NCBI RefSeq assembly: GCF_021190955.1
Contig: NZ_JAIOAO010000007.1
Coordinates: forward strand, 186,001 to 250,000
Origin: Parachryseolinea silvisoli
GTDB taxonomy: Bacteria > Bacteroidota > Bacteroidia > Cytophagales > Cyclobacteriaceae
Direction: 5' to 3'
DNA: 64,000 nt
Positions 9,564 to 30,864 of this stretch are shown one piece after another (within the stretch, counting starts at the first letter, position 1; each line of letters opens with the position of its first letter). A program made the translations under genes and the position numbers. The notes under the pieces are model-generated. The model was not told where the DNA came from. It ran no database searches and saw only the letters and a list, made by a program, of their open reading frames with translations.

Positions 9564-10548
9564 GCATCTGGTAAATATAGTCTGCCGTCTCCCCCATCGT
9601 CAGACTGCTCATCTGATAAAGCTTACGGCAATAGTCGAAGTGTTGCAGAATCTTTTCCAATCCTTTCATGCTCTGCTCGGGATAGCTGCCGAAATTGTGC
9701 GGATGCCACCACAGGTGGTATACTTCCTGGTTTCTGGCCGCGCGTTCCATCTCCTGGCAGATACGATTGATCTTCATATCGTTCAGAAAATATTCTCCCG
9801 GGCTGTATGGCCGCAATAGTCGACTGGCCGGCAGGCAAAGTGGCATACCGGGTTGAATAACGATGCTATCGAGCGTATAGGTATTCTTTTTCCCGAGCGG
9901 TATATAGGCATCGGCACCGCGGTTGAGCCGTTTCCAGCGAGACTCGTTTCGGGTGCTGCGAATGTTCCAGAACCAGTCGCGCGGGTTGTCGCGCACCGAC
10001 GTAAAGCCCTCCTCGTAACACACCCGCAGGTAGTCTTCGTTAAACTGGTTGCGCGGAAACACCAGCGACGTCAGGCGCTTGCCGTGCAGGGCCGCAGTTT
10101 GCTGGGCTGCCCGCAGATCGCCGCGGAACTGGTCCACGGTTTGCCCGGGTTCGTTACAATAGTAATGCGAAAAGGTATGCGACCCGAGTTCCTGGTTCGG
10201 CGTATGCAGTATTTCTTTCACCAGCGACGCCGCGAAGTGAAATGGGTCGGTCGGCTCATCTTCACCGATGCCGGTATTCTCCATGTATTGATACGCCGAC
10301 AACGCTTGTTGCGCATATCCTGGCCGCTCCGTCGGGTAAAGGCGTTCCGCCTCGCGCCGGGTGTTATGCATCAGGATTCCGACAGTAGCCCAGGTTACAT
10401 GTACATCGTGTTGCTTAAATGCCCGCAACATGTTGGGAATGGTTTTGCGGGTATTCAGGAAATACTGACGGTATTGTTGCAGCGGCCACTTCTCAAAGCC
10501 GCCCCAGTGAAGCTCAAAGTCCAGGGATATCGTAAAAATTCCGTTCAT
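9541..10548 (-). CDS. Polysaccharide deacetylase family protein (NodB-type)
   Basis: 335 residues without a clear signal peptide. Motif 1 is FTISLDFELHWG, with Asp10 as the metal/base aspartate. Motif 2 is SHTFSH (His124, His128), the metal-binding HxxxH. The later WWHPHNFG motif supplies a further His. Carbohydrate esterase family 4 enzymes remove N- or O-acetyl groups from glycans. The apparently cytoplasmic location suggests it acts on a lipid-linked intermediate rather than on the exported polymer. It overlaps the polymerase-like gene upstream by 4 nt and the GT4 gene downstream by 23 nt, so it is translationally coupled to both. Confidence 0.87.
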   Translation of the reverse strand: MNGIFTISLDFELHWGGFEKWPLQQYRQYFLNTRKTIPNMLRAFKQHDVHVTWATVGILMHNTRREAERLYPTERPGYAQQALSAYQYMENTGIGEDEPTDPFHFAASLVKEILHTPNQELGSHTFSHYYCNEPGQTVDQFRGDLRAAQQTAALHGKRLTSLVFPRNQFNEDYLRVCYEEGFTSVRDNPRDWFWNIRSTRNESRWKRLNRGADAYIPLGKKNTYTLDSIVIQPGMPLCLPASRLLRPYSPGEYFLNDMKINRICQEMERAARNQEVYHLWWHPHNFGSYPEQSMKGLEKILQHFDYCRKLYQMSSLTMGETADYIYQMHGKDQVA

Positions 10549-11765
10549 GCAGCAGGGGTTGTTGATGGGGATGGAGGTTGGGGCCTTCGCACGGGGGTAC
10601 GCCGTCGTACGGCGGCAAATACCTTTCGTTTCTCCGCTTCCATGTATGACAGCACGACAAATAGCAACAGAATCATAACCTGGCTTTTTTGCCGCATGGC
10701 TAATCCCAGGTTACCGGCAATCTGCGCCAGGGCGACCGAAACGGTCAGGAAGCTAAAGAAGGCGCTCTTAGCCAGAAAGTCACCGGTAAATAAGAACTTG
10801 ATACCGCGCAGGCTTGTCAGAATCTTCAGCGTGACGGCTACATAAAAAACATTTTCGAACGATACAATGATACCGAGCACACCGGGCGCATCAACAAACA
10901 ACGGGCGGTATAAGAATGTAAACACCTGCATCGGTAAACTATACTGTGTAATATCCACTCCGGACGAAGCCTTGGTAAGCTCCTTTGCCCGCCGGGACAT
11001 ATCAAGCCCCTGTGATATAAACTGTTCCTCGTCAATGCCGACCATGGAGAGAACATCGCGATAGATAAAAAAGAATGCCACCGAGGCGCCCAGCAAAAAC
11101 AACACGCGCCAGGCAACGCTCACCCCGCGGGAAGAGAATATAAATCCGGCCGCCGACGACACCAGCAGTACCAGCATGATGTGCGGGCGTACGTGGTAAA
11201 TGATCAACCCGCCAATGGCTACTGCCAAAAGACGCTTGCGCACATTGCTGATACCAAAAAAGTATAATCCAAGGCCCAGGAAAATGATCGAGCCTTTTCC
11301 AAAAGACGACGACCAGAAGTGCAGGTTAGGTAAAAAGAATGTGAGCGTGAGCAGGTCATAGCCCATGAACTGGTGCTTAAACCGGATGTTCTCCCGGAAG
11401 AAGATATAAAAATACAGGAAGCCCAGAAACCCCAGGAAGGAGAACAACGCCATCATGGCCTCGTACGAAAATCCCAGGTACCGAATAAAGGGATAGCCAA
11501 CGAACTCAATAAAGGTTGTGCTGGTGCCATAAAACGCGCCCCACGTATCGCCGCGGAATCCGCTCTCTACCTTGTGATAATACGCACGGGAGTCCGACGG
11601 GTTAAAGGCTACATAGCCCAGGTACGCAAACGAAAGGAGGATGTGCCACCAGTACATATTGCGCATAAGCGGCGCATCCATCACAGGATGCCGACGCTTC
11701 AGGCGGCCGATGACTGCGAACGAGATCAATCCCGTCAGAACCAGTACTAATAATCCTCCTAACAT
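10545..11765 (-). CDS. Multi-span membrane protein, probable Wzy/EpsG-like polysaccharide polymerase
   Basis: 406 residues with about ten hydrophobic helices and a Pro/Arg-rich C-terminal tail (VRRRTPVRRPQPPSPS). After helix 2 there is an NPSDSRAYY motif. Large membrane proteins of this size between glycosyltransferases are usually the polymerase that joins lipid-linked repeats in the periplasm. The location of the conserved polar residues resembles EpsG-type proteins more than classical Wzy, but sequence conservation in these families is very low. It is the only polymerase candidate in the locus. A role in transport or ligation cannot be excluded. Confidence 0.65.
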   Translation of the reverse strand: MLGGLLVLVLTGLISFAVIGRLKRRHPVMDAPLMRNMYWWHILLSFAYLGYVAFNPSDSRAYYHKVESGFRGDTWGAFYGTSTTFIEFVGYPFIRYLGFSYEAMMALFSFLGFLGFLYFYIFFRENIRFKHQFMGYDLLTLTFFLPNLHFWSSSFGKGSIIFLGLGLYFFGISNVRKRLLAVAIGGLIIYHVRPHIMLVLLVSSAAGFIFSSRGVSVAWRVLFLLGASVAFFFIYRDVLSMVGIDEEQFISQGLDMSRRAKELTKASSGVDITQYSLPMQVFTFLYRPLFVDAPGVLGIIVSFENVFYVAVTLKILTSLRGIKFLFTGDFLAKSAFFSFLTVSVALAQIAGNLGLAMRQKSQVMILLLFVVLSYMEAEKRKVFAAVRRRTPVRRPQPPSPSTTPAA

Positions 11766-11768
11766 GCT

Positions 11769-12803
11769 TTAGAATAATTCAAGGTCTCCCAATGACGGAC
11801 TCCAGGCGCGAAACGCTGCCAAGTCCGCTAATTTTTCTTCCGATGCCACGGCGCGAATGGTGACACCAGGACCGATGCGCAGGCCCCGGAAGTTAAGCAA
11901 TCCACTGCCTTTATACCACGGATTGCAACCCGACACCGTAATATAGTCAGCCTTCTGACGCCGCGCTTCTGCCCTCACCCATGCGGCCAGCGCACGTTTG
12001 GAAACATCGGCGTGTACAAACATGTCAGCCACACGAAACTCCACGCCCATGCCCGAAGGTTTGAGGCGGTAAAACATCAGCGCCGCTAATTGCTCGCCAC
12101 GCATCATGCCATGCGCACCGTACTGTACCACCGGCACGTGGTAGTACCGCCACAAAAGCGATTCGCGCGTATGCGGGGTATACCAGGTCTGCCCGCGTTG
12201 CTGACGGCTACTTTCCAACACCGCCGCCACGCCTGGATGCTCCAGCCAATTTGCCACACCTGCGCTGTCGGGTGCCCGCCGCGCCGCAATGCCCGGTACA
12301 CGGTCGTCGTTTACATACTCGGCCGCGCGGCGCCGTTTCAATCTGGCCAGGACCATCGACACCGGCCGCAGCAGTTCAATGTGTATCGGCAATTTGCCAG
12401 CTTCGCGCCAGCCCATCTTCAAATAACCAGGTTTGCTGTTCTGGTTGGGTGTGTTAAAAACGACGTGTGTGCCGTGCTGCAGGCAATACTCCAACAGTGA
12501 CAGTGTGAGCTTTTTAAAGATTCCTTTGCCCTGGTAATCCGGATGCGTGGCGGTGTCGACCGCGCGCACAGCCTGTAACACCTGGCCGTCGGCGCGTTGC
12601 CATCTCCAAGGCATAAAGGCGCGTACGCCTACCAACTCATCACCGTCAAACGTCACCAGCACAGGCGACACGCCAAAGGGATTTTCCACGTGCTTCCAGC
12701 GCCAGTATAGTTCTGACTTGGGTAACAAGCTTTCGCCCAGGCTTTTCTTGAGCAATTCTACAATGCCGGGAATGTCTCGTTCCTGTGCGATCCGGATGTC
12801 CAT
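11769..12803 (-). CDS. GNAT family N-acetyltransferase
   Basis: 344 residues. The N-terminal half (DIRIAQERDIPGIVELL, VDTATHPDYQGKGIFKKL at about 85-105) has the GNAT acetyl-CoA motif Q/R-x-x-G-x-G/A as YQGKGIF. The C-terminal half is a second, less conserved domain with WRYYHVP, resembling GNAT or FemAB-like proteins in polysaccharide loci. It probably acylates an amino sugar of the repeat unit. It lies 3 nt from the polymerase-like gene and 32 nt after the next glycosyltransferase. Confidence 0.75.
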   Translation of the reverse strand: MDIRIAQERDIPGIVELLKKSLGESLLPKSELYWRWKHVENPFGVSPVLVTFDGDELVGVRAFMPWRWQRADGQVLQAVRAVDTATHPDYQGKGIFKKLTLSLLEYCLQHGTHVVFNTPNQNSKPGYLKMGWREAGKLPIHIELLRPVSMVLARLKRRRAAEYVNDDRVPGIAARRAPDSAGVANWLEHPGVAAVLESSRQQRGQTWYTPHTRESLLWRYYHVPVVQYGAHGMMRGEQLAALMFYRLKPSGMGVEFRVADMFVHADVSKRALAAWVRAEARRQKADYITVSGCNPWYKGSGLLNFRGLRIGPGVTIRAVASEEKLADLAAFRAWSPSLGDLELF

Positions 12804-16203: not shown

Positions 16204-16935
16204 TTATTGAGTATCTAAAATCCCTCGCAATGTCGTATCCATCTGCACATTCTTGCCGGCGTGCCGTGCCAGGCGCTTCTTAAAGGCCTCATACTCCAAA
16301 TCCGGATTGTGCAGTCCCACTCCTTGCATAAAGTCACGCGCCTGCGTGGCTTGCTTCATGTCGTCGCGGTAGCCGTCACCATACGCCGTCTTAAAGAACG
16401 TAAAGCCCGTGATGTATAGCTCCGAAAAATCGGACTCCAGCAGCGTACACAGCGCCGAGTAGCCCGTCGTCGGACGGTAGCTTCCTAGCGATTGGTTAAT
16501 GTCGTTGTATAGCTTGCGCGACAACACATACGTGGGCTGCGCGGTTAAATACTTCTTGTAAAAGTTAAAGGTATTGCGAAGACCCGACCATTCGTTGCGC
16601 GGGTTGATAACATACTGCACGCCCTGCCGGCGGTACATATCAAAGTCCAGCGGACCACCGCCACTGTGCATGTTCTCAAGAAAACAGTGAAATAGAATAT
16701 CGGTGCGGGTACCGATGTCTGCGCTACTCTTGCCCGCCTCGATCGTCAACGCCGATTTATTCACGCGTACGACCAGGTCGAAGCCATCGATATAGGCCCC
16801 CTTGCCGGTATTAAAGGCTGACGTAGCGGGTCCGACCACGGCAATACGTTTCCCTTTGAATTTCTCCATCGGAAATACATGAATGTTGGTCGTCGCCAGC
16901 AACAGGCCACGGCAAGCATGAATCAGTTTTTTCAT
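16204..16935 (-). CDS. GT29 (sialyltransferase)-like glycosyltransferase
   Basis: 243 residues from the ATG at 16935 (MKKLIHACRG). I prefer it to the ATG 13 codons upstream, which would overlap the SGNH gene. Residues 31-60 (IAVVGPATSA ... IDGFDLVVRVN) match the L-motif of GT29 sialyltransferases, the CMP-binding region. Residues 154-180 (RPTTGYSALCTLLES, ELYITGF) match the S-motif. GT29 enzymes transfer sialic or related acids from CMP donors, which fits the cytidylyltransferase and NeuB genes of the locus. Sequence similarity to animal enzymes is confined to these motifs, so substrate and activity are inference. The protein has no obvious signal peptide and should act in the cytoplasm. Confidence 0.72.
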   Translation of the reverse strand: MKKLIHACRGLLLATTNIHVFPMEKFKGKRIAVVGPATSAFNTGKGAYIDGFDLVVRVNKSALTIEAGKSSADIGTRTDILFHCFLENMHSGGGPLDFDMYRRQGVQYVINPRNEWSGLRNTFNFYKKYLTAQPTYVLSRKLYNDINQSLGSYRPTTGYSALCTLLESDFSELYITGFTFFKTAYGDGYRDDMKQATQARDFMQGVGLHNPDLEYEAFKKRLARHAGKNVQMDTTLRGILDTQ

Positions 16936-16951
16936 AACGCTTTTTCGTGGG

Positions 16952-17803
16952 TTAATCATGAAACACCTCGGCAAATTTTTCCATAAATACCGCCGCTCCC
17001 TTTTTATTCAGGTGATCCTGGTCCACGTACCAGCTTTCGTTTTGCAGCTCCGGTGTAAAGTCGCGTACCGTTAGCCCGTTGACTTTTGCCAGCGAGTCGA
17101 CAACCATTGTCAGGTACGCACTCTCCGGGCGGTTGCGCACGAGCGAATCGTAATAGGGATGCACCGGGTAACGCACCGGTATAATATCATACCCACCCTG
17201 CCGGGCCCGGGTAATCAATGCCTGATATTCGCGCAGCAGCTTGCGGCTGACCGTGCTGTCGGGAAACTGTGCCGCCGCCCGCGAGCGAGCGCGCCCCTTG
17301 CTGAATGTATTTTTTTCCGGATCCGCCGGCTTTTTGCCAATCTGTAGCACATAGCGCTTGGTATCAAAACCCGTATTCGCATCGAAGAACAACGGCAGCC
17401 AATATACCACGTGTTTGTTCAGGTATGGATTATTGATCGTTTTGTTGACGGTGTTGTTCTGCTTTTCCTCCCGGTATACCGACACCAGATGCGGCTCGAA
17501 CGGAAGCACTACCGCTTTCTTACCTTCAAACCGGTTATGTTGAATGGCATACTCCAATTTCATCATCATGTCGGTCACGTTGTCGGAACCCTGCGCGAAG
17601 TTATAGCGGAGGGAATCGGTGTTGCCGGCCCATGACCGGTTGGCATGTGAATCGCCCAGGACTAACAACCGGAACCGCTCGGGGCAGTCCAGGTATTTCT
17701 TTTCATACGAACGCAGGTTGCCCCCGATCACCCCGACATATAGCAGGTTAACCACCAGCAGCACCCCGAGGCCCAAAAGAATGTGGCGCAGGAATTTGTT
17801 CAT
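16952..17803 (-). CDS. SGNH hydrolase-like periplasmic protein paired with MBOAT
   Basis: 283 residues with one N-terminal membrane anchor (about 7-27) and the rest extracytoplasmic. Block I is LVLGDSHANR, with Ser52 the expected nucleophile. Block V is DQDHLNKKG near residues 261-269, supplying Asp and His264. This is the DltD/AlgX-like partner arrangement: the adjacent MBOAT moves an acyl group across the membrane and the SGNH protein places it on the glycan. The gene lies 3 nt after the MBOAT gene. The acyl group, probably acetyl, is inferred. Confidence 0.75.
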   Translation of the reverse strand: MNKFLRHILLGLGVLLVVNLLYVGVIGGNLRSYEKKYLDCPERFRLLVLGDSHANRSWAGNTDSLRYNFAQGSDNVTDMMMKLEYAIQHNRFEGKKAVVLPFEPHLVSVYREEKQNNTVNKTINNPYLNKHVVYWLPLFFDANTGFDTKRYVLQIGKKPADPEKNTFSKGRARSRAAAQFPDSTVSRKLLREYQALITRARQGGYDIIPVRYPVHPYYDSLVRNRPESAYLTMVVDSLAKVNGLTVRDFTPELQNESWYVDQDHLNKKGAAVFMEKFAEVFHD

Positions 17804-19242: not shown

Positions 19243-19875
19243 TTAGGAGACTGTAGAGAACGACTGGACATAGTGAAAACCGTTATGATCAAATTCGGGG
19301 TTGTTATAACCAATAAAGTCGATCCCGTTGGCCACCGCCGCCTGGTGATCGTTGATAGAATCTCCTATCAGCACCGTTTTCGCGGGGTCGTATTGGTGTT
19401 TGGCCAGCACTTCTGCCACCAGCTGGTTTTTGGGTGTCGGTGAGCCGTGAATCGATACAAAATAATGATCGAGCTTTAGGCTCCGGCAAATCATGTTAAG
19501 CTCGACACCATCCGATCCCGACACGATGTGCATCGGCACGTCCTGGTACTTGCGGCGAACAAAGTCCAACGAGTCCCGAATCAATAGTTGCTCGTTCAGC
19601 AGCAACCGTTTCATCACCGTCGAAAACTCGGCAGCCATGGCTTGCACCTGTTCTTCGGTAATCGATTCTTTGCGAATCACTTCGAAAAAGTAGCGGAACT
19701 TGACATACCGCGACAAACCGCCGTTGATGCGGTGGTAAACCATCAGCTGGTCAACCTGCTCTTTGGGATACTGCGCCAGCACATGTTTGAAGCCTTCGTC
19801 GCGCACCGGCATGGAGTCCATCAGCACACCGTCGAAGTCCCACAACAGGCACTTATACGTTGAAAAGTTTATCAT
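19243..19875 (-). CDS. HAD family phosphatase of the cytidylyltransferase/aldolase set
   Basis: 210 residues of HAD subfamily I. Motif I is DFDGVLMDS, with Asp13 as nucleophile and Asp15. A helical C1-type cap follows. Then come the Ser of VSGSDG, the Lys of TPKNQLV and motif IV IGDSINDH. The 3' end of the NeuA-like gene overlaps its start by 23 nt, so the two are translationally coupled. In Kdo and NeuNAc-9-P pathways a HAD phosphatase removes phosphate from the 3-deoxy-ulosonate before CMP activation; the gene order suggests the same here. It is not of the KdsC (C0, cap-less) type. Confidence 0.85.
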   Translation of the reverse strand: MINFSTYKCLLWDFDGVLMDSMPVRDEGFKHVLAQYPKEQVDQLMVYHRINGGLSRYVKFRYFFEVIRKESITEEQVQAMAAEFSTVMKRLLLNEQLLIRDSLDFVRRKYQDVPMHIVSGSDGVELNMICRSLKLDHYFVSIHGSPTPKNQLVAEVLAKHQYDPAKTVLIGDSINDHQAAVANGIDFIGYNNPEFDHNGFHYVQSFSTVS

Positions 19876-20551
19876 AGATCGCTTCAGCTATCAGAAAATC
19901 ATCTTCCCAATCAATGTCAAAAGATTTGATCTTGTCCTGTTCGTACAGGTAGGGCTTCGCGCCTACGCGGTTACTCTCGTTGCGGTAGATTTCCCGCGAT
20001 GTGATAAACATGGCGTGGTTCACCTCGTACAGCACCGGCAGGTCTTGCGTGCGCGGCCAACGGTTGGCCCCCGCGTCGTAGTTCGAGACGTTTCCCTGCG
20101 CATCGAGCAGAAAGTTCTGCAACGGCATGACGCTGATGAGCGAGTCATAGCCCGCCTTCAGCTTCTCGAAATATAGCCCGATGCCGCGGTCGTATTCGGC
20201 GGCGTCTACGAACGGCGTTGTGGTATGGCCCCAGATGATGTGTGACTCGGAGATGATCTCCGGCACGTATTTGATCAGGTCTGTCAGCACCGTGGTATCC
20301 AGGCAAAGGTGATCCGGGCGCTGAATCACTTGAATCTTCTCCCCTTGCGGATCCAGTTTGCGTGCTATTTCCATCGACAGCTCGTCGTTGGTGGAAAGTA
20401 CCACGCGGCTGATGGCGCGCGAGCGCTGGAGCTGACGCAGCTTTACTTCCAGAATGCCGCCTTCTACACCGGCAAACACGCGGGTGTTCTTCGACTTGAC
20501 CCGTTGACTTCCCTTCCGCGTAGGAAGAAAAAAACAAATATCCTGACTCAT
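19853..20551 (-). CDS. Acylneuraminate cytidylyltransferase family protein (NeuA-like)
   Basis: 232 residues. The N-terminal FLPTRKGSQRVKSKN (8-22) is a variant of the NeuA/KdsB nucleotide-binding signature I-P-A-R-x-G-S-K. The STNDE segment and the late IDWEDDFLIAEAIYD match the metal-binding Asp pair of the family. The enzyme should form CMP-ulosonate from CTP and a 2-keto-3-deoxy sugar acid. It sits between the aldolase gene (4-nt overlap) and the HAD phosphatase gene (23-nt overlap), which predicts a three-step route: aldol condensation, dephosphorylation, CMP activation. The exact acid is unknown. Confidence 0.87.
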   Translation of the reverse strand: MSQDICFFLPTRKGSQRVKSKNTRVFAGVEGGILEVKLRQLQRSRAISRVVLSTNDELSMEIARKLDPQGEKIQVIQRPDHLCLDTTVLTDLIKYVPEIISESHIIWGHTTTPFVDAAEYDRGIGLYFEKLKAGYDSLISVMPLQNFLLDAQGNVSNYDAGANRWPRTQDLPVLYEVNHAMFITSREIYRNESNRVGAKPYLYEQDKIKSFDIDWEDDFLIAEAIYDKLFNV

Positions 20552-22089
20552 ACCAGCGATGCGTAGACAGAAGTGACCGGAAGACTTTTATAGTTGGTCG
20601 GTGTGAGCGAGCTCAGCTCATTACCGGTAAATTCGCGGAACGCCCGGAACAGGTATTCGTTCTCATCCGCCAGGGTTTTCTCCAGTTGTGAAATAGTCTT
20701 CTCCTGGTAGCCGTCGTAGCCCACCAGCAATAGCTGTATCGCGCCAAGCTGATGCGCCGTTTGCAGCGCCAGCGCGGTGTGCGAATCGGTCAGCGTGGTC
20801 GTGAAATCAATATGGGGCAGCTCAAAGCTCTTGTCCTGGATGGCGTCTGGTATATACGTTCCCATCTTGCGCGGGAACGGCGGCAGCACACACTGGCCTT
20901 TGAAGTTGCTCAGGCTCAGGAATACGTTTTCCAGCCGGTGGCCTTCGTTGCCCACCAGACAGAAGTATTGATCGATGGCCAGGTGGTCGTAGTCCGCTGC
21001 GTTTTTCGAACTGGCGTGGATCAGACACGTGTCGGCTTCCTTGCCCTGGATGTATTCGCGAATGGCCTGACGGTGTAGGCGTGCATTCGGTCCGCCACCG
21101 ATGATGATGGCGCGTTTATACTTTTTAGCAGGTTGAAATACGGGCAGTTTCTGGTTGTCCTGTACCTTTTCTTTCTGATTATTCAACGCACGGATAATGC
21201 TGTTGAAGGAATAGAACCGGCGGGTCACCCACTCCATCACATCCTTCTGCGGCAGCGAGTTTGCGCCCGATACCATATAGGGCAGGTTTGTGCCCCAGCC
21301 ATGGTGTTGCTGTAGTTTCTCAAAAGCATCCACCACCGTGCTCAACGCATTGAAGTCTACCTTCAGGTTGTCTCGCGCGTTCAGCGCCGTCAACAACAAT
21401 TCGGTCTTGAGGTTGCCTGCGCCACGGCCCATACCGGTTACGGTAGCGTCGATCATCGACACACCGTTCTCCACCGCCGTCAGCGAGTTGATCAGCGCCA
21501 GCTCCAGGTTGTTGTGACCGTGGAAGCCCAGCTTCACCGAGGTGCGTTGCTTGACGATGTCGATGGTTTCTTTTACGTCTTGCGGATATACACCACCGTA
21601 CGAATCCACCATATAGAAATAATCGGCCACGGCATCCACATATTTAATCTCGTCGAGGAACGATTTGTATTGTTTCCATTTCGACATATACATGATATTG
21701 AAACCTACTTCAAAGCCCAGTTTCTTGATGGCCTCCGCCAGCTTCAGCGCGCGCGGCAGTTGCTCGGGGTCGAGCGCAATACGCACCATGGTGATGATGC
21801 CCACGCAAGGCTTCAGCAACGCCGGTACGTGCTCAGGGCGTACATCTTTTTCGTTCAGGATAATGACCAGCTTGGTCTTCGACGTCTCCCTGGCGTTCTC
21901 CAGTACATATTGCGGGCAGTAGAAGTACTCGCCCAGGTATTCCTTCATGGGGTTACTGCGGTAGCCGATCTCCAGGTAATCTACCGGCAGGTTGTTGAAG
22001 GATTGGAAATAGGTCTTCACAAGCTCCGGGCTGAAGTCCCATTCGGTATAATAGCCTCCGTCGCGGAGTGTGCAATCGAGTATTTTCAT
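20548..22089 (-). CDS. HMGL-type pyruvate aldolase fused to a Rossmann-like/MAF-type domain
   Basis: 513 residues in two domains. Residues 1-300 form a DmpG/HMG-CoA lyase-like TIM barrel: LDCTLRDGG (4-12), VDSYGG (161-166), the metal-binding HGH in GFHGHNN (His190, His192) and GMGRGAGN (219-226). Such enzymes catalyse aldol addition or cleavage with pyruvate-type nucleophiles. After a linker, residues about 325-513 start with AIIIGGGPN (328-335) and include LLLVGYDGY. This resembles the Rossmann-like domain of MAF/DUF115 or sialyltransferase-type proteins. The gene overlaps both neighbours by 4 nt. Likely product: a 2-keto-3-deoxy sugar acid for the cytidylyltransferase (inference). The second domain's role is unknown; it could bind or transfer the activated sugar. 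Confidence 0.8.
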   Translation of the reverse strand: MKILDCTLRDGGYYTEWDFSPELVKTYFQSFNNLPVDYLEIGYRSNPMKEYLGEYFYCPQYVLENARETSKTKLVIILNEKDVRPEHVPALLKPCVGIITMVRIALDPEQLPRALKLAEAIKKLGFEVGFNIMYMSKWKQYKSFLDEIKYVDAVADYFYMVDSYGGVYPQDVKETIDIVKQRTSVKLGFHGHNNLELALINSLTAVENGVSMIDATVTGMGRGAGNLKTELLLTALNARDNLKVDFNALSTVVDAFEKLQQHHGWGTNLPYMVSGANSLPQKDVMEWVTRRFYSFNSIIRALNNQKEKVQDNQKLPVFQPAKKYKRAIIIGGGPNARLHRQAIREYIQGKEADTCLIHASSKNAADYDHLAIDQYFCLVGNEGHRLENVFLSLSNFKGQCVLPPFPRKMGTYIPDAIQDKSFELPHIDFTTTLTDSHTALALQTAHQLGAIQLLLVGYDGYQEKTISQLEKTLADENEYLFRAFREFTGNELSSLTPTNYKSLPVTSVYASLV

Positions 22090-23828
22090 AGCGTCTTCCC
22101 TGTATTCGTCTTAAAATATATGTTAATGTCGCCGGCGGCCGAGGCCTCCCGGGCGAATAAGAGCTTATAAGCATTGATGGCTTCCCGCACGGGGGCCGAT
22201 TGCCACCACGCGTCGATCCGGTCCAGGTTGGTATTGATAAAATCGGCGGCGCTAAGGTAAGAAAAGTGCACCACCCCGACAGCAGCCAGCTGATCATAAA
22301 CCGGCCGGGCAATATCAGAAAATGCGGGTGTTTTGTTCTCCTCAAACACGATAACCGGCGTGTCCGTCAGGATACATTCCGGAAAAGCCGTTGAAAAGAA
22401 GTAGTCAATCACCGCCATACGAGCCGTTTTGAGCTTGTCAACCAGCTTTCCTTCCATGTAATCCACCCGAATGCCGGGGTAGCGGTAGCGCCAGACCGAT
22501 ACATTGTCTTTCTTCGTAAACCGGGTCGTAAGCAACCGCAGCACAATGTGTTGCCGCAGCGGCTCGTTCAGGCGCAGGTAAAACTGCTCTTGCACCCGAT
22601 CATAATCGAAGAATAACAAGTATTCCCACCCCGAGTTGCCAATGGAACCGCGGGTAAGCCACAACAGGTCCTTGAACTGGCCCTCTGTCGGCGCTGGCCG
22701 CTTTTGCAAGGAGCCCAGCTTGACGGCGTGGTATGGCAATTGGTTTTCCTGTTTGCGCCAGCCCCACGTCAGAAAGAGGTCAGCCACCCGCGCTTCGCTG
22801 CGCTCCCAAATGGCCATTTTAGATTCTCCGTACACCGAGCCGTGCTGCACCACGCACAGCTTCACGCCTTCCCGCATCATCTCGCGCACAAAAAAGCGCT
22901 CGTGTGTGTAGAAAAAGCGATCCGCTACGACATAGGCCGGCAGCGTAACGCTGCGTTTGTAGCGTGCCATCTGCTGGTTGGCCACGCGCAGGTAATACCG
23001 CATGCCCTCCACATACGTGCGGGGCAAACAGGCCGCCAGCGTGGCGGCAAAGGCCTGCACCAGGGTGTCGTCACCTGGCCGCTGTAATGCCTGCCTGAGG
23101 GTACCACGTAATGCCGTATCGGTGCGGAACAGAAAGATGCCGTTGAACAACGGCACCGCCATGCGGCCCATCTCCACGTGTGCAACCGAACCGTGCAGCC
23201 CTCCTTTGATGAATTGAACAGCATGAGAAGACGCACCTTCTTGTACACGTGAAAAGCGCGCTTTCAAGGCTGCATACGAATAGAGCAGCTGCGATGTCCG
23301 TTCGTCTTTGTGAATCTTCTGGCGCGAATGGTTGCTGGCATCAACAAAGTCCTGATGCCGCAGGCGCCGGGTCGCGATGCCGCGCGCTTCCAGAATCGTG
23401 GTAAAAATCTGCAGTGAAAAGAAGTCGCTGTTCTTCAGCGCGTCCGTCATCTGGTTATCGCTGTTGGGCGCCAGGAAGTCCTCCTCCGCCAGTGTGATAA
23501 ACTCTACTTGTTGCAGATCTGCCTGCTGCAGGAAGTAATAGCTCCCCAGGAACTGCCGCACCAGGAACGTGAGCGACCGGTATACGAGGAACTCCGCTTC
23601 GCGCGCCGTGACGTGCAGATCTAACGTTGTCGTGTAAAACGCTGTCAGCCGCGGGATCATTTCATCCAACAGCAGATCGGCTTTTTCAACCAGCGCCAGA
23701 AAATCCTGTTTGGTGTGCTCGCCCAGCGCCAGTCGTTGGGCCGCATCCGCCTCACCCGCCAGGTCCAGAAACGGTGTGGACGGTATATGCAGCGGCGAAG
23801 ATTTAGTTAAATGGAGAGTCTTGGCCAT
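22086..23828 (-). CDS. LIC12162-family putative transferase
   Basis: 580 residues, cytoplasmic. The N-terminal region is helical (EAEFLVYRSLTFLVRQFLG). The central CVVQHGSVYG with a following DLFLTWGW matches the QHG...LTWGW pattern of the LIC12162 family. The C-terminal block (ARMAVIDYFFSTAFPECI, PVIVFEE, and IDAWWQSAPVREA) resembles the donor site of GT-B enzymes. The family is found in Leptospira and other capsule or LPS loci and has no proven reaction. Its position directly upstream of the aldolase gene (4-nt overlap) suggests it uses the product of that set. Family recognition is from memory of its motifs, so moderately sure. Confidence 0.72.
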   Translation of the reverse strand: MAKTLHLTKSSPLHIPSTPFLDLAGEADAAQRLALGEHTKQDFLALVEKADLLLDEMIPRLTAFYTTTLDLHVTAREAEFLVYRSLTFLVRQFLGSYYFLQQADLQQVEFITLAEEDFLAPNSDNQMTDALKNSDFFSLQIFTTILEARGIATRRLRHQDFVDASNHSRQKIHKDERTSQLLYSYAALKARFSRVQEGASSHAVQFIKGGLHGSVAHVEMGRMAVPLFNGIFLFRTDTALRGTLRQALQRPGDDTLVQAFAATLAACLPRTYVEGMRYYLRVANQQMARYKRSVTLPAYVVADRFFYTHERFFVREMMREGVKLCVVQHGSVYGESKMAIWERSEARVADLFLTWGWRKQENQLPYHAVKLGSLQKRPAPTEGQFKDLLWLTRGSIGNSGWEYLLFFDYDRVQEQFYLRLNEPLRQHIVLRLLTTRFTKKDNVSVWRYRYPGIRVDYMEGKLVDKLKTARMAVIDYFFSTAFPECILTDTPVIVFEENKTPAFSDIARPVYDQLAAVGVVHFSYLSAADFINTNLDRIDAWWQSAPVREAINAYKLLFAREASAAGDINIYFKTNTGKTL

Positions 23829-25646: not shown

Positions 25647-27134
25647 CTATACACTTCCTGCGGTAAAGCGTTCAAATGTATGAAATTTATCTTCCTGATC
25701 CTTTCCGGCGCGCGTGGCCTGCCCCCCATCCTGCCAGGATGTATCGTGCAGAATGGCGATCAGGCATTCACTCGTATCTTCCTCCGGTAGAATCACCTTT
25801 TCTTCTTCGACATAGTGCGCATAATAGCTCATCAGGTTGGCCGCACGCAGCAGCACAGGCTTCATGCCCATCTCCACAGCCTCGATCACCGAACCCGACG
25901 GCTTAGACAACATGCCGCGGCAATACCGCATCGATACCGGCAGCGGCACTTCGCTGGGATTTTCGATCATGGCAAAGTCTTGTATACCTCTTTCGATAAG
26001 CTGTTTCTCTAATCCTGCCTTGTGCTGATACTGGCGCGGGTGCATGCGCAGTACCCATTTACGCTGGTTGCCGAAATACTGAATGGTCTCTACGAGATAG
26101 TCGTCCAGCAACACTTCCGTCATGCCCACCAGCAAATAGTCTTTATACGCCGGTGGTGTTTTATACAGTCGTATGCTCGCATCCGTCCACGGGTTGCCGA
26201 CGGCAAACGCACGGTGAAAGCGTGTCTGCGCACCCCACTCGTTTACCAGTGCGGCGCTGTTGGCATCCCAGCTCCAGAAATACTTCGGTAGCAAGGAATA
26301 ACCCTCCGCCGGCGCTTTGCTCCAGCGGTCGTAGCAATAATGACCACGCCCCAGGCCGCCGTGCTGAATATCGGCCGTGCCGATGCCCAGCTCGTTGCAG
26401 GCCGCAATCATGGGATACATCAGCGACGAGTAATAACAAATGAAATAGGCCTGCTTGATGCCCGAACCCTTCAGGAATCGCTTCGCAAACTCTTTCCGCT
26501 CATATAGTGTGATGCCCCGTTTGGTGACATCTCTCTTAGTGAAGGTCTTCTTGATTGGCGCGGTGTGCTGAAAGGTCTTCAACGCATAGTCGAAGAACTC
26601 ATCATAACCGGGCAGCTCCACCGTGTACTTCTTTTTGCCGGGTCTAAGCTTGCGGCTCAGCTCTTGCAAGATGTAGAAGGAAGGCAAGCTGAATACACTG
26701 TTTTTGTGGGGATACTTCTTCTTATCCAGCTTCGTGCTGGTATCAAAGATCACCGACGACTCGTGTTGCTGCTCAAAGTCACCGACGGCCACGTCGAAGA
26801 ACTTGTTGAAGAACATCCCGTCCAGCTTTACGCGGTGCGTGGAAGCACCAAAGAAAAGACGATTGGACTTCTTCAGCTTCTTCTTCAGTGACAGATATTC
26901 CATCGGCAGCTTCAGCACGATCTTCAGATAGTTCTTGATCCTGTTTCGGCGCGACCGGGCTGTGTCTTTCTTTTTGCTGGTGTTCGGATTCTGATTTTGG
27001 CTATACGCCAGCGAGGTGCGTAGCACGGGCCATATCTTAAGGCCGTTTACCTGCCATGCGTTTACCGGAAAGAGCGCTTCGATCTCGTTGAGTTTCTCTA
27101 GTATGCTTTCCGGATTAAATTTCTGTGTTACCAT
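25647..27134 (-). CDS. Putative GT-B-like surface carbohydrate transferase with QHG motif
   Basis: 495 residues, soluble, Lys/Arg-rich in the first third. I do not recognise a named family. The middle has IGTADIQHGGLGRGH and FWSWDANSA. This Gln-His-Gly element followed by a Trp-rich segment recalls capsule transferases and the LIC12162-type protein encoded at 22086-23828. The C-terminal half has WVLRMHPRQYQHK and MLSKPSGSVIEAVEMGMKPVL, like the donor domain of CDP-glycerol- or polysialyl-type GT-B enzymes. It overlaps the GT2/cytidylyltransferase fusion gene by 7 nt, so it may use the CMP-sugar made by that protein. The function is inferred. Confidence 0.6.
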   Translation of the reverse strand: MVTQKFNPESILEKLNEIEALFPVNAWQVNGLKIWPVLRTSLAYSQNQNPNTSKKKDTARSRRNRIKNYLKIVLKLPMEYLSLKKKLKKSNRLFFGASTHRVKLDGMFFNKFFDVAVGDFEQQHESSVIFDTSTKLDKKKYPHKNSVFSLPSFYILQELSRKLRPGKKKYTVELPGYDEFFDYALKTFQHTAPIKKTFTKRDVTKRGITLYERKEFAKRFLKGSGIKQAYFICYYSSLMYPMIAACNELGIGTADIQHGGLGRGHYCYDRWSKAPAEGYSLLPKYFWSWDANSAALVNEWGAQTRFHRAFAVGNPWTDASIRLYKTPPAYKDYLLVGMTEVLLDDYLVETIQYFGNQRKWVLRMHPRQYQHKAGLEKQLIERGIQDFAMIENPSEVPLPVSMRYCRGMLSKPSGSVIEAVEMGMKPVLLRAANLMSYYAHYVEEEKVILPEEDTSECLIAILHDTSWQDGGQATRAGKDQEDKFHTFERFTAGSV

Positions 27135-28528
27135 ACTTCAGCCTTCGGTGCGGGTTCCAGGATCTTGCTTATCAGCAGCAAGTCAAACTCCGACTGCACA
27201 AAAAACGCCGTCTTCTGGTCCACTACAATGTGGCCCACTTTGCCAGCCACCATCTTGCCGTGCGCGCGGAAGCTATCGACCGTGGCGATCACCACTCCAC
27301 CGGCGCCCTTGTAGAGAGCTTCACGCTCCAGCTTGGTAAACTTTTCCTGATCCAGGATCGGCACCATACCGTGACCGATGTGCTGGTAGTACATGCGGTT
27401 GTCTGGACGTACACTCAACAGCGAGTCGCCTTTGAAGATTGCCAGCGTGTTAACGGCATCGTCAATCACATCCTTTGTCAGGAACGGAAACTCCACCGAC
27501 ACTTGCATGACCGCGCCGGGTTTTATACCCTGCGTTGCCAGCGTGTCCAGTACGTGGCCAAATGTTTTGGTCAGTGATTCGTTTACCCGCGCAAACTCTT
27601 CCGGACGCGGCACGATCTGCAGCTTGGGGTACCGGTTCGCACGGGTTTTGATAAACTCCAATATGTTGTCGTCGGCTGAAGTCACCACCACCCATTGTAC
27701 GCGATCAGAAGCACTTACCTTCTCAATGGTGGCCTCTAGCATGGTCTTACCGTCGTGCTCCAACAGCGGCCAGTTGGTCTTGCCGATCATCGTATTCCGC
27801 ACGGGAATGATCGCCACTGTCTGGGGTGTTTTCAACTGGTATGTTTCGACGTATAGATCTTTGATCTGTTTGCGTGTCGTCAGGATGCGCAGCTCGTTCG
27901 TGGTCAGGTTTTGTCCATGGCGACGATACGAGAACAGCGGTTGCTTGACGTTGGTCACCTTGTGGTGCATGATAAACTTGATCCACAGGTCGTAGCCATC
28001 CTGGCAGGTAAAGCTTTCGTTATAACCACCCAGGTCGCGCAGGAACTCCAGTCTGATCATCGTACAGGCGCCGTGTGCCGGCTGATCGTACAACGATACT
28101 TCCTTTTCAAAGTCGTGACGGCGTTCCTCACCGGTAATTTCGCCGTTGCCATCTACATAGTAATAGTCGGGAAAAACCAGGCCAAGCTCAGGGTCGCTCT
28201 CCAGCACGTTGCTCATCGTTTCCAGGGCGTTCGGCTCCAGGAAGTCGTCTGCATCCAACCGCATCAGATATTTACCGTGCGAGGCGCGCATGGCAATATT
28301 GTTGGTCACGTTCAGCCCTTTGTTTTGCTGGTAGATGATACTGATCCCCGGCTGATCGCGGTACTCTTCAATGATATCTTTACTGTTGTCGGTCGAGCCA
28401 TCGTCGATAATCAGCAGCTCGAAATTTTGGAGGGTCTGGTTCAACACACTTTCGATCGACGTACGGATGTACTTCGCGTAGTTGTAGTTGGTGATGTACA
28501 CACTGACCAGGGGCTGTTGCGTATTCAT
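27128..28528 (-). CDS. Fusion of GT2 glycosyltransferase and NeuA-like cytidylyltransferase domain
   Basis: 466 residues. Residues 1-230 are a GT-A family 2 domain: VSVYITNYNYAKYI, DDG at 42-44, DADD at 92-95 (the DXD-type metal site) and QDGYDLW at 176-182. Residues 237-460 resemble an acylneuraminate cytidylyltransferase: VAIIPVRNTMIGKTNWPLL stands at the I-P-A-R-G-G-S-K position, followed by VVVTSADDNIL, SVEFPFL and the C-terminal VVDQKTAFFVQSEFDLLLI. Several usual nucleotide-binding residues are changed, so CTP activation is uncertain. The start overlaps the acetyltransferase stop by 4 nt. A bifunctional enzyme that activates and transfers a ulosonic acid is possible but unproven. Confidence 0.78.
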   Translation of the reverse strand: MNTQQPLVSVYITNYNYAKYIRTSIESVLNQTLQNFELLIIDDGSTDNSKDIIEEYRDQPGISIIYQQNKGLNVTNNIAMRASHGKYLMRLDADDFLEPNALETMSNVLESDPELGLVFPDYYYVDGNGEITGEERRHDFEKEVSLYDQPAHGACTMIRLEFLRDLGGYNESFTCQDGYDLWIKFIMHHKVTNVKQPLFSYRRHGQNLTTNELRILTTRKQIKDLYVETYQLKTPQTVAIIPVRNTMIGKTNWPLLEHDGKTMLEATIEKVSASDRVQWVVVTSADDNILEFIKTRANRYPKLQIVPRPEEFARVNESLTKTFGHVLDTLATQGIKPGAVMQVSVEFPFLTKDVIDDAVNTLAIFKGDSLLSVRPDNRMYYQHIGHGMVPILDQEKFTKLEREALYKGAGGVVIATVDSFRAHGKMVAGKVGHIVVDQKTAFFVQSEFDLLLISKILEPAPKAEVW

Positions 28529-29151
28529 AGTCTTTCTTTTAGCGGTTTGGCAGGAATACCTGCCACTACCTGGTAGGCATCCACATTTTTGGTGACCACG
28601 GCGTTGCTTCCCACAACACCGCCCTGAGCAATCGTCACACCGGGCAACACCACCACGTGCGTGCCCAGCCAGGTATCGTCGGCCAACTGCACGGGCGCAT
28701 GTTCATAGCCCTGATCTTGTACAGACTGGTCACGGGCTGCATATCCATGCATGCTGGTTTGGAGATAAACAAAGCCCGAGATAAGGGCTTTTTTGCCGAC
28801 GGTGATCGAGTCACCGCCGTTCAGAACGGTGTACAACCCGATGCGAGCACCAGCCTGAATGTCGATGCGGGCTTTGTTGGCCGCCAGCAGGCGTACCCCC
28901 CGGTCGATGCGGGTCTTGTCGCCAATCAGCACCTCTGATTGACCGTGGGCGCGAATCTCGACATTGCGGCGAAATTCGACGTTGTCGCCAATTCGCACAC
29001 GGCAATTTTTATCGACAATGATGCGGGGTACAGAATCTGTGCTAAACCCTTTCCCAATAGACACACGTCCCCCCGCGTAAACGATGCGGGTCAACAGCGC
29101 GTTCCATTTAGGAACAAAATGGCGCAGATAATATTGTGAAAACACAAGCAT
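28525..29151 (-). CDS. Hexapeptide-repeat acyltransferase
   Basis: 208 residues dominated by left-handed beta-helix repeats (VRIGDNVEFRRNVEIRA ... ARIGLYTVLNGGDSITVG). It closes with TWLGTHVVVLPGVTIAQGGVVGSNAVV and the VVAGIPAKPLKER tail of the CysE/LacA/WbbJ group. It probably O-acetylates a sugar with acetyl-CoA. Its ATG shares one base with the NeuB-like stop codon (TAATG), tying its translation to the nonulosonate genes. It may modify that acid. Confidence 0.82.
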   Translation of the reverse strand: MLVFSQYYLRHFVPKWNALLTRIVYAGGRVSIGKGFSTDSVPRIIVDKNCRVRIGDNVEFRRNVEIRAHGQSEVLIGDKTRIDRGVRLLAANKARIDIQAGARIGLYTVLNGGDSITVGKKALISGFVYLQTSMHGYAARDQSVQDQGYEHAPVQLADDTWLGTHVVVLPGVTIAQGGVVGSNAVVTKNVDAYQVVAGIPAKPLKERL

Positions 29152-30173
29152 TACTCCTGTATAAAATCGTTCCAGCTTAGCTTCTGATGCATTTTCAGGT
29201 CGTGCTTGGCCTTTTTGCCAATCACCTGATCGTATTCCCGGGCATCGATGCCGTGGTTGGGCCTTAATACCGTCAGATTGTCCGGAGTAATCACCTCACC
29301 TGCCTTAATATCGCGTAGCGGATACACGGCCCTGCGGAACGAGATTTCATGTTTGTGTTCCAGTTCAATTTGTACCGGACGCTTTTCAGCTTCGCCTTGA
29401 TACTGGTAGATCAGCTTGATCTCCGCAATCAATTCCTTGATCTCGGCGGGCGTCAGTGAGACCTTATGGTCGCGGAACACCTTGCCTTCCCGGTTGTCGG
29501 TAAAGTGAAATTCCAGCACCTCCGCCCCCATGGCTACAGCATAATACAAGGCTTTGCTGCCCTCGGTGTGGTCGGAATATCCTACGGTAAGGCCCGTCAG
29601 CTCTTTCAGGCGCTTCATGACGTGCAGGTTAGAATCGCTGGGGTTAATGGGGTACATGCTGGTACACTGCAATACCGCCAGCATGTCTTTTGAAGTATAA
29701 ACAGGGTTGATCGACTGAATGTAACGAACGGTGTCCACGACCTCTTGTTCCGTCGAAAGACCGGTCGATACGATCATTGGCTTGCCCCTTTCCGCGGTCT
29801 TCGCCAATACGGGGTATGCCGTCAGGTCGCCGCTGCCAATTTTGTACAGCGTGATGTATTTATCCAGCCATTCCATGGCATCGATATCCCACACCGAAGA
29901 CGTGTAGAGTATACCCGCCTCCTTCACCATTTCGGCCAGGTATATATGCTGCTCCTTGGTCAGCTCGAATTTTTTAAAGTGCTTGTTGCGGTCCGGGCTC
30001 TCCAGGCTCGACACCAGCGTGTCGCCGGTATAGATCTGAAACTTTACGTAGTCTACGCCCGAGTCAATAGCCATCTGAGCCAGTTGCTTGGCATAGTCAA
30101 AGTTACCTTCATGATTGCCACCGATTTCAGCAATCAGCAACGGGCCGTATTTTCCTTTGAATGGATTATGCAT
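29151..30173 (-). CDS. NeuB/SpsE-family N-acetylneuraminate synthase-like enzyme
   Basis: 340 residues with the full two-domain layout. The TIM-barrel synthase domain (1-270) has LIAEIGGNHEG, VKFQIY (43-48), YKIGSGDL, IVSTGLS and YSDHTEG. The C-terminal SAF/antifreeze-like domain (about 280-340) has RAVYPLRDIKAGEVIT. His202 (SDHTEG) and His223 correspond to the metal ligands of meningococcal NeuB. The family's EKHFT is EFHFT here, with Phe222 for the usual Lys. These enzymes condense phosphoenolpyruvate with a hexosamine to give a nine-carbon acid. The SpsF-like gene overlaps it by 8 nt. No NeuC, PseB or LegB-like gene is present, so the precursor must come from elsewhere or be unusual. Confidence 0.9.
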   Translation of the reverse strand: MHNPFKGKYGPLLIAEIGGNHEGNFDYAKQLAQMAIDSGVDYVKFQIYTGDTLVSSLESPDRNKHFKKFELTKEQHIYLAEMVKEAGILYTSSVWDIDAMEWLDKYITLYKIGSGDLTAYPVLAKTAERGKPMIVSTGLSTEQEVVDTVRYIQSINPVYTSKDMLAVLQCTSMYPINPSDSNLHVMKRLKELTGLTVGYSDHTEGSKALYYAVAMGAEVLEFHFTDNREGKVFRDHKVSLTPAEIKELIAEIKLIYQYQGEAEKRPVQIELEHKHEISFRRAVYPLRDIKAGEVITPDNLTVLRPNHGIDAREYDQVIGKKAKHDLKMHQKLSWNDFIQE

Positions 30174-30864
30174 GTTTGATCTCGTTAATTATAGTCAGGA
30201 TATCTTTCATGTTGTACGTCCAGTGTGGCGCTGTGAACTGCTGCATGATCTGTAGCGTGCGGTCCCAATCCTCCTGGGTATCCAACGCCAGCTGAATACC
30301 GGAAGCCTCCGGCAGCGACTCGTTCAAGTAATAAAAGTACGTCCGGCCCACATCGTGCTCGTACAGATACAGGGTGACGTGCTCGCGGTATTGTGGCGAG
30401 GCAAAAATCGTGGACAACAACGATGCATAGTGCTTCACACGTACGATCTCCACACTCATGCCCTTGGGAAACGTTCTTCCTTTGACGTTGCTGACAAAGT
30501 CGTATTGACCAGTCTCCGCCAGCGCAATCATTTCGCGCAGCACCTCCGTGTCAACAAATATATTATCACCGTTTATGCGCGTGGCATACTCCCACCCTAG
30601 TGCGGCAGCGGCTTCGTAAAACCGCTGCGCCACATTCTCAAGCGAGCCGCGATAACACTTCATGCCAGACGCTTTTGCAAAGGTCGCGATGGGATCATCA
30701 GATGCTTCTTCCGACGTCGCCAATACAATATTTTCAGCCGGCACTACTTGCAGCAGGCGCTCCAGGATATAGGTCAGGATCACCTTTCCGAGCATGGGCC
30801 GCAGCGCCTTACCCGGAAGGCGGGAGGAATTGTAACGTGATAAAATAACAATGCCTGTACGCAT
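30166..30864 (-). CDS. SpsF-like cytidylyltransferase
   Basis: 232 residues. The N-terminal GIVILSRYNSSRLPGKAL (4-21) is the S-S-R-L-P-G-K signature of SpsF-type nucleotidyltransferases. NIVLATSEEASDDPI, CYRGSLENVAQRFYEAA and ATRINGDNIFVD complete the pattern, including the G-D metal site. In Bacillus spore-coat loci SpsF is encoded next to the NeuB-like SpsE, the same pairing as here, where the two genes overlap by 8 nt. It probably makes the CMP-activated form of the acid made by the NeuB-like enzyme. Confidence 0.88.
   Translation of the reverse strand: MRTGIVILSRYNSSRLPGKALRPMLGKVILTYILERLLQVVPAENIVLATSEEASDDPIATFAKASGMKCYRGSLENVAQRFYEAAAALGWEYATRINGDNIFVDTEVLREMIALAETGQYDFVSNVKGRTFPKGMSVEIVRVKHYASLLSTIFASPQYREHVTLYLYEHDVGRTYFYYLNESLPEASGIQLALDTQEDWDRTLQIMQQFTAPHWTYNMKDILTIINEIKHA

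Follow-up and report, generated by a model that had tools for sequence, protein, structure and literature searches.

The stretch of DNA studied here (hereafter the window) comprises 64,000 nucleotides of Parachryseolinea silvisoli (contig NZ_JAIOAO010000007.1, positions 186,001 to 250,000). At 19243-22089 it holds a trio of overlapping genes, all on the minus strand, encoding an HMGL-type aldolase (ALD), a cytidylyltransferase and a HAD-superfamily phosphatase. The frames of ALD and the cytidylyltransferase share 4 bp, and those of the cytidylyltransferase and the HAD protein share 23 bp. We propose, with a probability of about 75%, that this trio is a module which makes a 3-deoxy-2-ulosonic acid activated with cytidine monophosphate (CMP) from pyruvate and an aldose or aldose phosphate, independently of the synthases KdsA and NeuB. 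The features of the trio are as follows.

20548-22089, minus strand: ALD, a two-domain HMGL/DmpG-like aldolase of 513 residues (open reading frame, PF00682, AlphaFold model with Foldseek search)
21175-22089, minus strand: catalytic TIM-barrel domain of ALD, residues 1-305 (alignment, AlphaFold model, Foldseek)
20548-21138, minus strand: C-terminal domain of ALD, residues 318-513, with weak MptE-like resemblance (hhalign, BFVD fold search)
22060-22062, minus strand: codon of ALD Asp10, a predicted metal ligand (84 of 84 aligned sequences)
21514-21522, minus strand: codons of ALD His190 and His192, predicted metal ligands (84 of 84 aligned sequences)
19853-20551, minus strand: cytidylyltransferase of the NeuA/PseF/KdsB superfamily, 232 residues (PF02348, 38.6 bits)
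19243-19875, minus strand: HAD-superfamily phosphatase, 210 residues (PF13419, 60.8 bits)

A sequence-only reading of the window had described three overlapping genes at this place, among them a NeuA-like cytidylyltransferase and a HAD phosphatase other than KdsC, and the open reading frames and family scores confirm the presence of the set. All three proteins exceeded the Pfam gathering scores: ALD reached 92.8 bits for HMGL-like (PF00682, gathering score 29), the cytidylyltransferase 38.6 bits for CTP_transf_3 (PF02348, 22.6) and the HAD protein 60.8 bits for HAD_2 (PF13419, 23.8). The translation of the last contains DFDGV, which we take to be the DxD nucleophile motif. In NCBIfam, PseF (TIGR03584) was the nearest and only model matched by the cytidylyltransferase, but membership was rejected as the score of 60 bits missed the cut-off of 205.7. 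The nearest named model for the HAD protein was phosphoglycolate phosphatase, at 47.5 bits against a cut-off of 225, and no KdsC model of NCBIfam matched it at E<=0.001. As none of the three proteins reaches the cut-off of its nearest NCBIfam model, the family names do not reveal precisely what they do.

The active site of ALD was studied on an alignment of 84 sequences (the window ALD and 83 others), drawn from 91 full-length sequences after 7 near-duplicates were dropped. Both histidines of the metal site, His190 and His192, which had been called intact, are present in the window ALD, and Arg9, Asp10, Tyr13, His190, His192 and Asn194 are invariant in all 84 sequences. By analogy with DmpG, we assume that Asp10, His190 and His192 are ligands of a divalent metal. 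An AlphaFold model built on this alignment had a mean pLDDT (predicted local distance difference test) of 95.6, while an earlier model from 13 sequences had reached 80.8 with weak catalytic loops. A Foldseek search with the model found PDB entry 3dxi as the best match (57% identity), followed by 4-hydroxy-2-oxovalerate aldolases. ALD belongs to the HMGL-like (DRE-TIM) superfamily, as indicated by the PF00682 score and by the TIM-barrel fold of the model. The best NCBIfam match of the window ALD was also 4-hydroxy-2-oxovalerate aldolase (110.6 bits), compared with 68 bits for isopropylmalate synthase. Membership of the former family was nevertheless rejected, since ALD scored 97 against 286 bits for TIGR03217 and 110.6 against 229 bits for NF006049. 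Pyruvate aldolases are the nearest characterised relatives of ALD by both sequence and fold.

It has to be considered here that ALD could use another nucleophile, either a different 2-oxo acid or an acyl-CoA, and that a different acid would then be activated by the cytidylyltransferase. Acyl-CoA condensing enzymes occur among the DRE-TIM relatives. In addition, ALD has the motif RDGGY where the 4-hydroxy-2-oxovalerate aldolase 4lrs has RDGSH, so that Tyr13 stands at the position of the histidine that is catalytic in DmpG. However, the NCBIfam score for 4-hydroxy-2-oxovalerate aldolase well exceeds that for isopropylmalate synthase, and the nearest characterised folds are those of pyruvate aldolases, which makes another nucleophile improbable.

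The sequence-only reading had suggested searching gene neighbourhoods for the three families together, and the co-conservation holds. In a sample of 395 genomes drawn evenly from the phylum, ALD relatives (E<=1e-30) occurred in 10, the window's genome counted. Among the nine full-length relatives besides the latter, seven had a cytidylyltransferase and five a HAD gene within flanks of 1.5 kb. When 84,980 species genomes were scanned, at least 576 ALD relatives were obtained among at least 592 candidate stretches. The best 80 of these were used, and 73 of the 80 loci were counted, those with less than 2.5 kb downstream (L025, L057, L063, L067, L069, L070 and L093) being dropped. The 80 loci come from Bacteroidota, several classes of Pseudomonadota, Bacillota, an actinobacterium (Microthrix), Campylobacterota (Malaciobacter) and an Omnitrophica bin, the phylum of some being presumed from the genus name.

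A cytidylyltransferase lay within 2.5 kb of ALD in 68 of the 73 loci, and in 54 the open frames were at most 60 bp apart. The nearest cytidylyltransferase was of the window type in 32 loci, of the KdsB type in 32 and of a third type in 4, one of these last assignments (L096) being weak at 37 bits. HAD genes were found near ALD in 48 loci, each time together with a cytidylyltransferase; none of the 73 had a HAD gene without one. The five loci with no cytidylyltransferase within 2.5 kb were L065, L073, L085, L086 and L088, and in L073, L085 and L086 one was found farther out. Counted as six-frame profile matches, cytidylyltransferases numbered 70 in the 360 kb within 2.5 kb of ALD versus 14 in the 719 kb farther off (about 10-fold), and HAD matches in the same stretches 49 versus 3 (about 30-fold), contrasts that are somewhat inflated because the profiles were made from genes of the same loci. 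An earlier count filtered by open reading frames, which missed overlapping genes, covered 75 loci with at least three genes downstream and gave a cytidylyltransferase in 66, a HAD gene in 49 and both in 43. The evolutionary distances of ALD and HAD were correlated with r of 0.84 over 48 loci, a value as high being reached in 0 of 2000 permutations, with the relatedness of the species not removed. For the distances of the cytidylyltransferases, r was 0.60 and 0.29 after score filtering (31 loci each); it was weak, 0.29 and 0.13, unfiltered with the types mixed. The public annotation of a Leisingera plasmid also lists an aldolase, a 3-deoxy-manno-octulosonate cytidylyltransferase and a HAD hydrolase in a row.

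Rossellomorea (L082) belongs to an order that we take to be Bacillales, and 397 genomes of this order were used to examine the relation between ALD and KdsA. With the KdsB subfamily model NF009905 (E<=1e-30, cut-off 255 bits), 30 KdsB genes were found in 28 of the 397 genomes, 15 of which had a score above 255 bits. Sixteen of the genes stood beside KdsA and fourteen beside ALD; within a limit of 3 kb, none adjoined both and none adjoined neither. The spacing was at most 1.6 kb to KdsA and at most 20 bp to ALD. KdsA was over its cut-off in 16 of the 28 genomes, and the other 12, which are those whose sole listed KdsB adjoins ALD, all carry ALD-KdsB-HAD. Their leftover matches to the KdsA model stayed below 135 bits and were taken for DAHP (3-deoxy-D-arabino-heptulosonate 7-phosphate) synthases. 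Both KdsA-KdsB and ALD-KdsB-HAD were present in G531 and G621, with a separate KdsB for each. A HAD gene was found in all 14 ALD-KdsB loci; in 11 it scored only 22-33 bits with the model of the window-type HAD, and those loci therefore have another HAD subfamily.

All 29 genomes searched had a match to the NeuB model over its low Pfam cut-off of 22.1 bits. The match exceeded 200 bits in 4 of the 12 KdsA-free genomes; in the other 8, the NeuB-model matches were all below 40 bits and were co-located with the weak KdsA-model matches. The same coincidence of weak NeuB- and KdsA-model matches was seen in G432, a Bacillus bin with ALD-HAD-cytidylyltransferase. A second ALD subfamily was found in 14 of the 397 genomes, 11 of its members standing beside KdsB and 13 having a HAD gene. 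A PseF-like cytidylyltransferase adjoins this ALD in G563 and G648, and in G564 a cytidylyltransferase lies about 1.5 kb off.

A physical link was found in viral contigs. Among 2.9 million viral contigs, 44 ALD relatives were detected, and in 35 of them (27 distinct sequences) a single open frame spans an aldolase domain at about residues 1-310 and a KdsB domain at about 320-573. Each of five fusions checked in Pfam matched HMGL-like and CTP_transf_3. Four were checked in NCBIfam; three exceeded the 255 bits of the KdsB subfamily, and the fourth scored 242.7, yet above a second KdsB model. Some cytidylyltransferase was present in 40 of the 44 viral loci. On one contig (L194), an endolysin and phage Gp88 are among the neighbours, and a search of phage records matched the KdsB part only, in 5 records. 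Some of the predicted viral contigs with ALD relatives (L187-L228) are longer than 150 kb.

The earlier prediction that a DmpG-like aldolase replaces KdsA is supported by the 12 KdsA-free genomes and by the viral fusions. Because KdsB stands with either KdsA or ALD, and because ALD and KdsB are fused in viral contigs, we suggest that ALD supplies the substrate of the cytidylyltransferase. This pattern and the fusion, like the domain identities, the metal-site residues and the co-conservation, are direct observations. They also bear on the idea that the three genes are merely common members of polysaccharide islands, brought together by chance or hitch-hiking. The window trio and many of the other loci do sit in glycan clusters with many genes for sugar nucleotides and glycosyltransferases. 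Such an explanation is nevertheless contradicted by the raised density of both partners near ALD (even with profiles from the same loci), the overlapping frames, the placing of all 30 KdsB genes and the fusion proteins, and we regard it as scarcely credible.

From these data, a pathway for the trio may be outlined. ALD, as a divalent-metal DRE-TIM aldolase, would most likely condense pyruvate, as its enolate, with an aldose that is usually phosphorylated, and give a 3-deoxy-2-ulosonate or its phosphate. The HAD enzyme would remove the phosphate where one is present. The cytidylyltransferase would then activate the acid with cytidine triphosphate (CTP), pulling the reversible aldol step forward, and glycosyltransferases of the cluster would transfer the sugar onto a surface glycan. 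The donor, acceptor, product, reaction and transfer step of this outline are what we infer. Two candidates for the transfer are present in the window.

22086-23828, minus strand: LIC12162-family-like transferase, a candidate glycosyltransferase of the same operon (TIGR04331, 167.9 bits, cut-off of 225 not reached)
16204-16974, minus strand: GT29-like sialyltransferase relative, a candidate user of the CMP-sugar (PF00777, 34.3 bits)

The first lies directly upstream and shares 4 bp with the start of ALD. The second is two genes downstream of the HAD gene, and in 8 of the 73 loci, GT29-like sialyltransferase relatives were found downstream of ALD at a distance of about 1.2-1.5 kb.

Another explanation is that ALD makes ordinary 3-deoxy-D-manno-octulosonic acid (Kdo), as the 8-phosphate, from pyruvate and D-arabinose 5-phosphate, and that the trio is a second source of CMP-Kdo. 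The cytidylyltransferases give some reason for it, as the nearest one to ALD is of the KdsB type in 32 of 68 loci, and two KdsB-type proteins of ALD loci that were scanned both exceeded the KdsB subfamily cut-off of 255 bits. In the Bacillales-like order, 3 of the 14 ALD-linked KdsB proteins exceeded 255 bits and the other 11 scored 232-253, compared with 237-243 for 4 of the 16 KdsA-linked ones. The usual source of arabinose 5-phosphate, however, is missing: KdsD (kpsF) was over its cut-off in 16 of 16 genomes with KdsA versus 1 of 12 KdsA-free ALD genomes, and in that one (G811) the match was partial with an internal stop. Therefore, the acceptor is probably not arabinose 5-phosphate made by KdsD, and the product of the KdsA-free ALD module is probably not ordinary Kdo. 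Moreover, many carriers already have KdsA. Genomes of 76 of the 80 loci were searched for it, and it exceeded its cut-off in 36 of 40 genomes of one set (39 loci plus that of the window) and in 31 of 39 of another (37 loci plus two Bacillales-like genomes), with one miss falling just below. For most carriers, ALD would thus be a further route. The window cytidylyltransferase itself matched the PseF model only. Taken together, the formation of ordinary Kdo by ALD seems unlikely, and we prefer a different ulosonic acid as the product of the trio. Ribose 5-phosphate, erythrose 4-phosphate or glyceraldehyde 3-phosphate may be suggested as candidate acceptors.

The window's genome has KdsA and KdsD and, elsewhere, a strong cytidylyltransferase match (201.6 bits), so the Kdo of its lipopolysaccharide need not depend on the trio. 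In the same cluster of the window, a NeuB-type synthase (29151-30173) stands beside a KdsB/NeuA-like cytidylyltransferase (30166-30864), forming a second acid-sugar pathway. It is likely that the trio is a further acid-sugar pathway in this cluster.

CMP-ulosonic acids are understood to derive from the synthases KdsA and NeuB, which depend on phosphoenolpyruvate (PEP). The trio would follow the same order of logic as KdsA-KdsC-KdsB in making CMP-Kdo, namely formation of the carbon-carbon bond, dephosphorylation and activation with CTP. The cytidylyltransferase nearest to ALD is of the KdsB type in 32 of 68 loci, that of the window being PseF-like below the cut-off. It differs in that an HMGL-type aldolase stands for the PEP-dependent KdsA, in that the HAD protein of the window matches no KdsC model, and in the lack of a KdsD match over the cut-off in 11 of the 12 KdsA-free carriers, while the window's genome has KdsD. 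With DmpG and its relatives, ALD shares the DRE-TIM barrel, the Asp and HxH residues of the metal site and the Arg before the Asp. Unlike DmpG, it lies below both family cut-offs, has RDGGY in place of RDGSH, carries an extra C-terminal domain and has a cytidylyltransferase as partner. Acylating acetaldehyde dehydrogenase, the partner of DmpG, was not found among the window neighbours scanned, the whole genome not being searched. The NeuB-NeuA systems of sialic, legionaminic and pseudaminic acids resemble the trio in the activation, here predicted, of a 2-ulosonic acid with CMP, the window enzyme being nearest PseF, but the trio has no NeuB, and the NeuB of the window adjoins another cytidylyltransferase gene. 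The catalytic domain of the window ALD is 57% identical to PDB 3dxi, the N-terminal domain of Bacteroides vulgatus BVU_2661, although this entry is titled merely 'putative aldolase' and covers the catalytic domain only. For sialic acid, it is established in vitro that a CMP synthetase can be supplied by a pyruvate aldolase, in the one-pot use of sialic acid aldolase with CMP-sialic acid synthetase (PMC7729866). This is a laboratory cascade and not a natural operon of the trio kind. Its aldolase presumably belongs to a different family from ALD.

In the open-access literature, we found no description of the trio or of a pathway of its make-up, in line with the remark of the sequence-only reading that no such pathway was known. 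What is proposed here keeps the order of the three known steps but begins with an enzyme of another kind. In its wider form, the proposal says that an HMGL-aldolase route to CMP-ulosonic acids exists in several phyla without KdsA or NeuB, that fusion enzymes of it occur in viruses, and that the acid is not Kdo and comes from an aldose or aldose phosphate of central metabolism; this wider form has, in our view, slightly better than even chances. If true, a common aldolase-based replacement would explain the KdsB/NeuA genes in genomes without KdsA or NeuB, and where Kdo or sialic acids are predicted from the genomes of Bacteroidota, Bacillota and Pseudomonadota, some of these predictions of surface sugars may be wrong. 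It would also give a role to the generically named 'aldolase catalytic domain-containing protein'. The ALD-KdsB fusion would be a single polypeptide expected to make a CMP-sugar out of pyruvate, CTP and an aldose (phosphate).

The second domain of ALD, at about residues 318-513, was not mentioned in the sequence-only reading. The domain of the window had no Pfam match, including MptE-like (PF01973), and a sequence search of PDB gave poor matches only (best E 0.09). With hhalign, its match to a cluster that itself scores weakly as MptE-like had a probability of 93%, that to a pair of MptE-like proteins one of 77%, and MptE-like proteins were among the matches of a BFVD fold search. In the Bacillales-like order, proteins weakly matching the profile of this domain adjoin KdsA or KdsB clusters (L156, L157, L162, L163 and L165), and a protein of the same kind in L100 (588-1415) is MptE-like in Pfam; these proteins are possibly transferases of the activated acid. 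Relatives of about 320 residues with a TIRDGGLVNNWDF-type motif and without the C-terminal domain were found in 24 of the 397 genomes (L102-L127). They are apparently solitary, as no cytidylyltransferase was recognised by eye within 1.5 kb around them.

Several points weigh against the proposed pathway. No member of the ALD family with a known reaction was found, and with Tyr13 in place of the DmpG histidine, the residues suggest that the chemistry of ALD may differ. ALD carries the extra C-terminal domain without an assigned role. Two of the nine relatives of the phylum sample (L009 and L012) had neither a cytidylyltransferase nor a HAD gene in the 1.5 kb flanks. In the Bacillales-like order, the ALDs of the KdsA-free genomes are mostly close relatives and therefore represent few independent events: with one of the 11 KdsB-linked ALDs of the second subfamily as the query, the other ten showed 63-89% identity to it. 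A HAD gene was not found nearby in 25 of the 73 loci, where the window-type profile could miss others, and the HAD profile was matched in 1 of the 44 viral loci and not in the remaining 43, so dephosphorylation is less certain than the other two steps. As the profile of the ALD C-terminal domain was matched in only 3 of the 44 viral loci, neither it nor the HAD protein seems to be part of the minimal core. An HpcH/HpaI aldolase adjoins an intact ALD in 6 of the 73 loci, which is unexplained by a single pyruvate addition and was unforeseen in the earlier scheme. Together with a gene resembling 2-keto-3-deoxygluconate (KDG) kinase, these aldolases fit a 2-keto-3-deoxy acid theme rather than a single addition.

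These last genes raise the possibility that ALD produces or modifies an upstream piece and that another enzyme, an HpcH/HpaI aldolase or an unlinked one, forms the ulosonic acid. Besides the six loci, HpcH/HpaI-like aldolases occur in L010, L012, L018 and L093; three of this type scanned in NCBIfam were all below the cut-offs. L027, L028, L081 and L093 join such an aldolase with the third-type cytidylyltransferase, whose profile was made from these four and two further such loci, and in L032 and L033 the KDG-kinase-like gene is a neighbour of the cytidylyltransferase. On the other hand, 67 of the 73 loci have no such aldolase, and the single-polypeptide fusion and the KdsA-or-ALD pattern point to ALD as the direct supplier. 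We therefore consider an upstream role of ALD doubtful and retain ALD as the enzyme that would form the acid.

Some details of these and other loci were also recorded. In L027, L028, L081, L093, L010 and L018, the extra HpcH/HpaI-like aldolase comes directly after ALD, together with the third-type cytidylyltransferase. The KDG-kinase-like gene of L032 (10246-11271, below the cut-offs) follows the cytidylyltransferase in the place of the HAD gene, and its counterpart in L033 (10289-11314), which falls into the same sequence cluster, has the same position. Inside the ALD-HpcH cluster, L085 encodes an LdpA-like iron-sulphur protein (9624-10649), and L086 a gene of the same sequence cluster (11209-12222) as well as one with a weak ferredoxin-NADP reductase match. 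In the window, a 495-residue protein (25647-27134) gave no significant Pfam or NCBIfam match. It adjoins a protein (27128-28528) that combines a glycosyltransferase 2 domain with a weak cytidylyltransferase domain, an arrangement that differs from the ALD-KdsB fusions.

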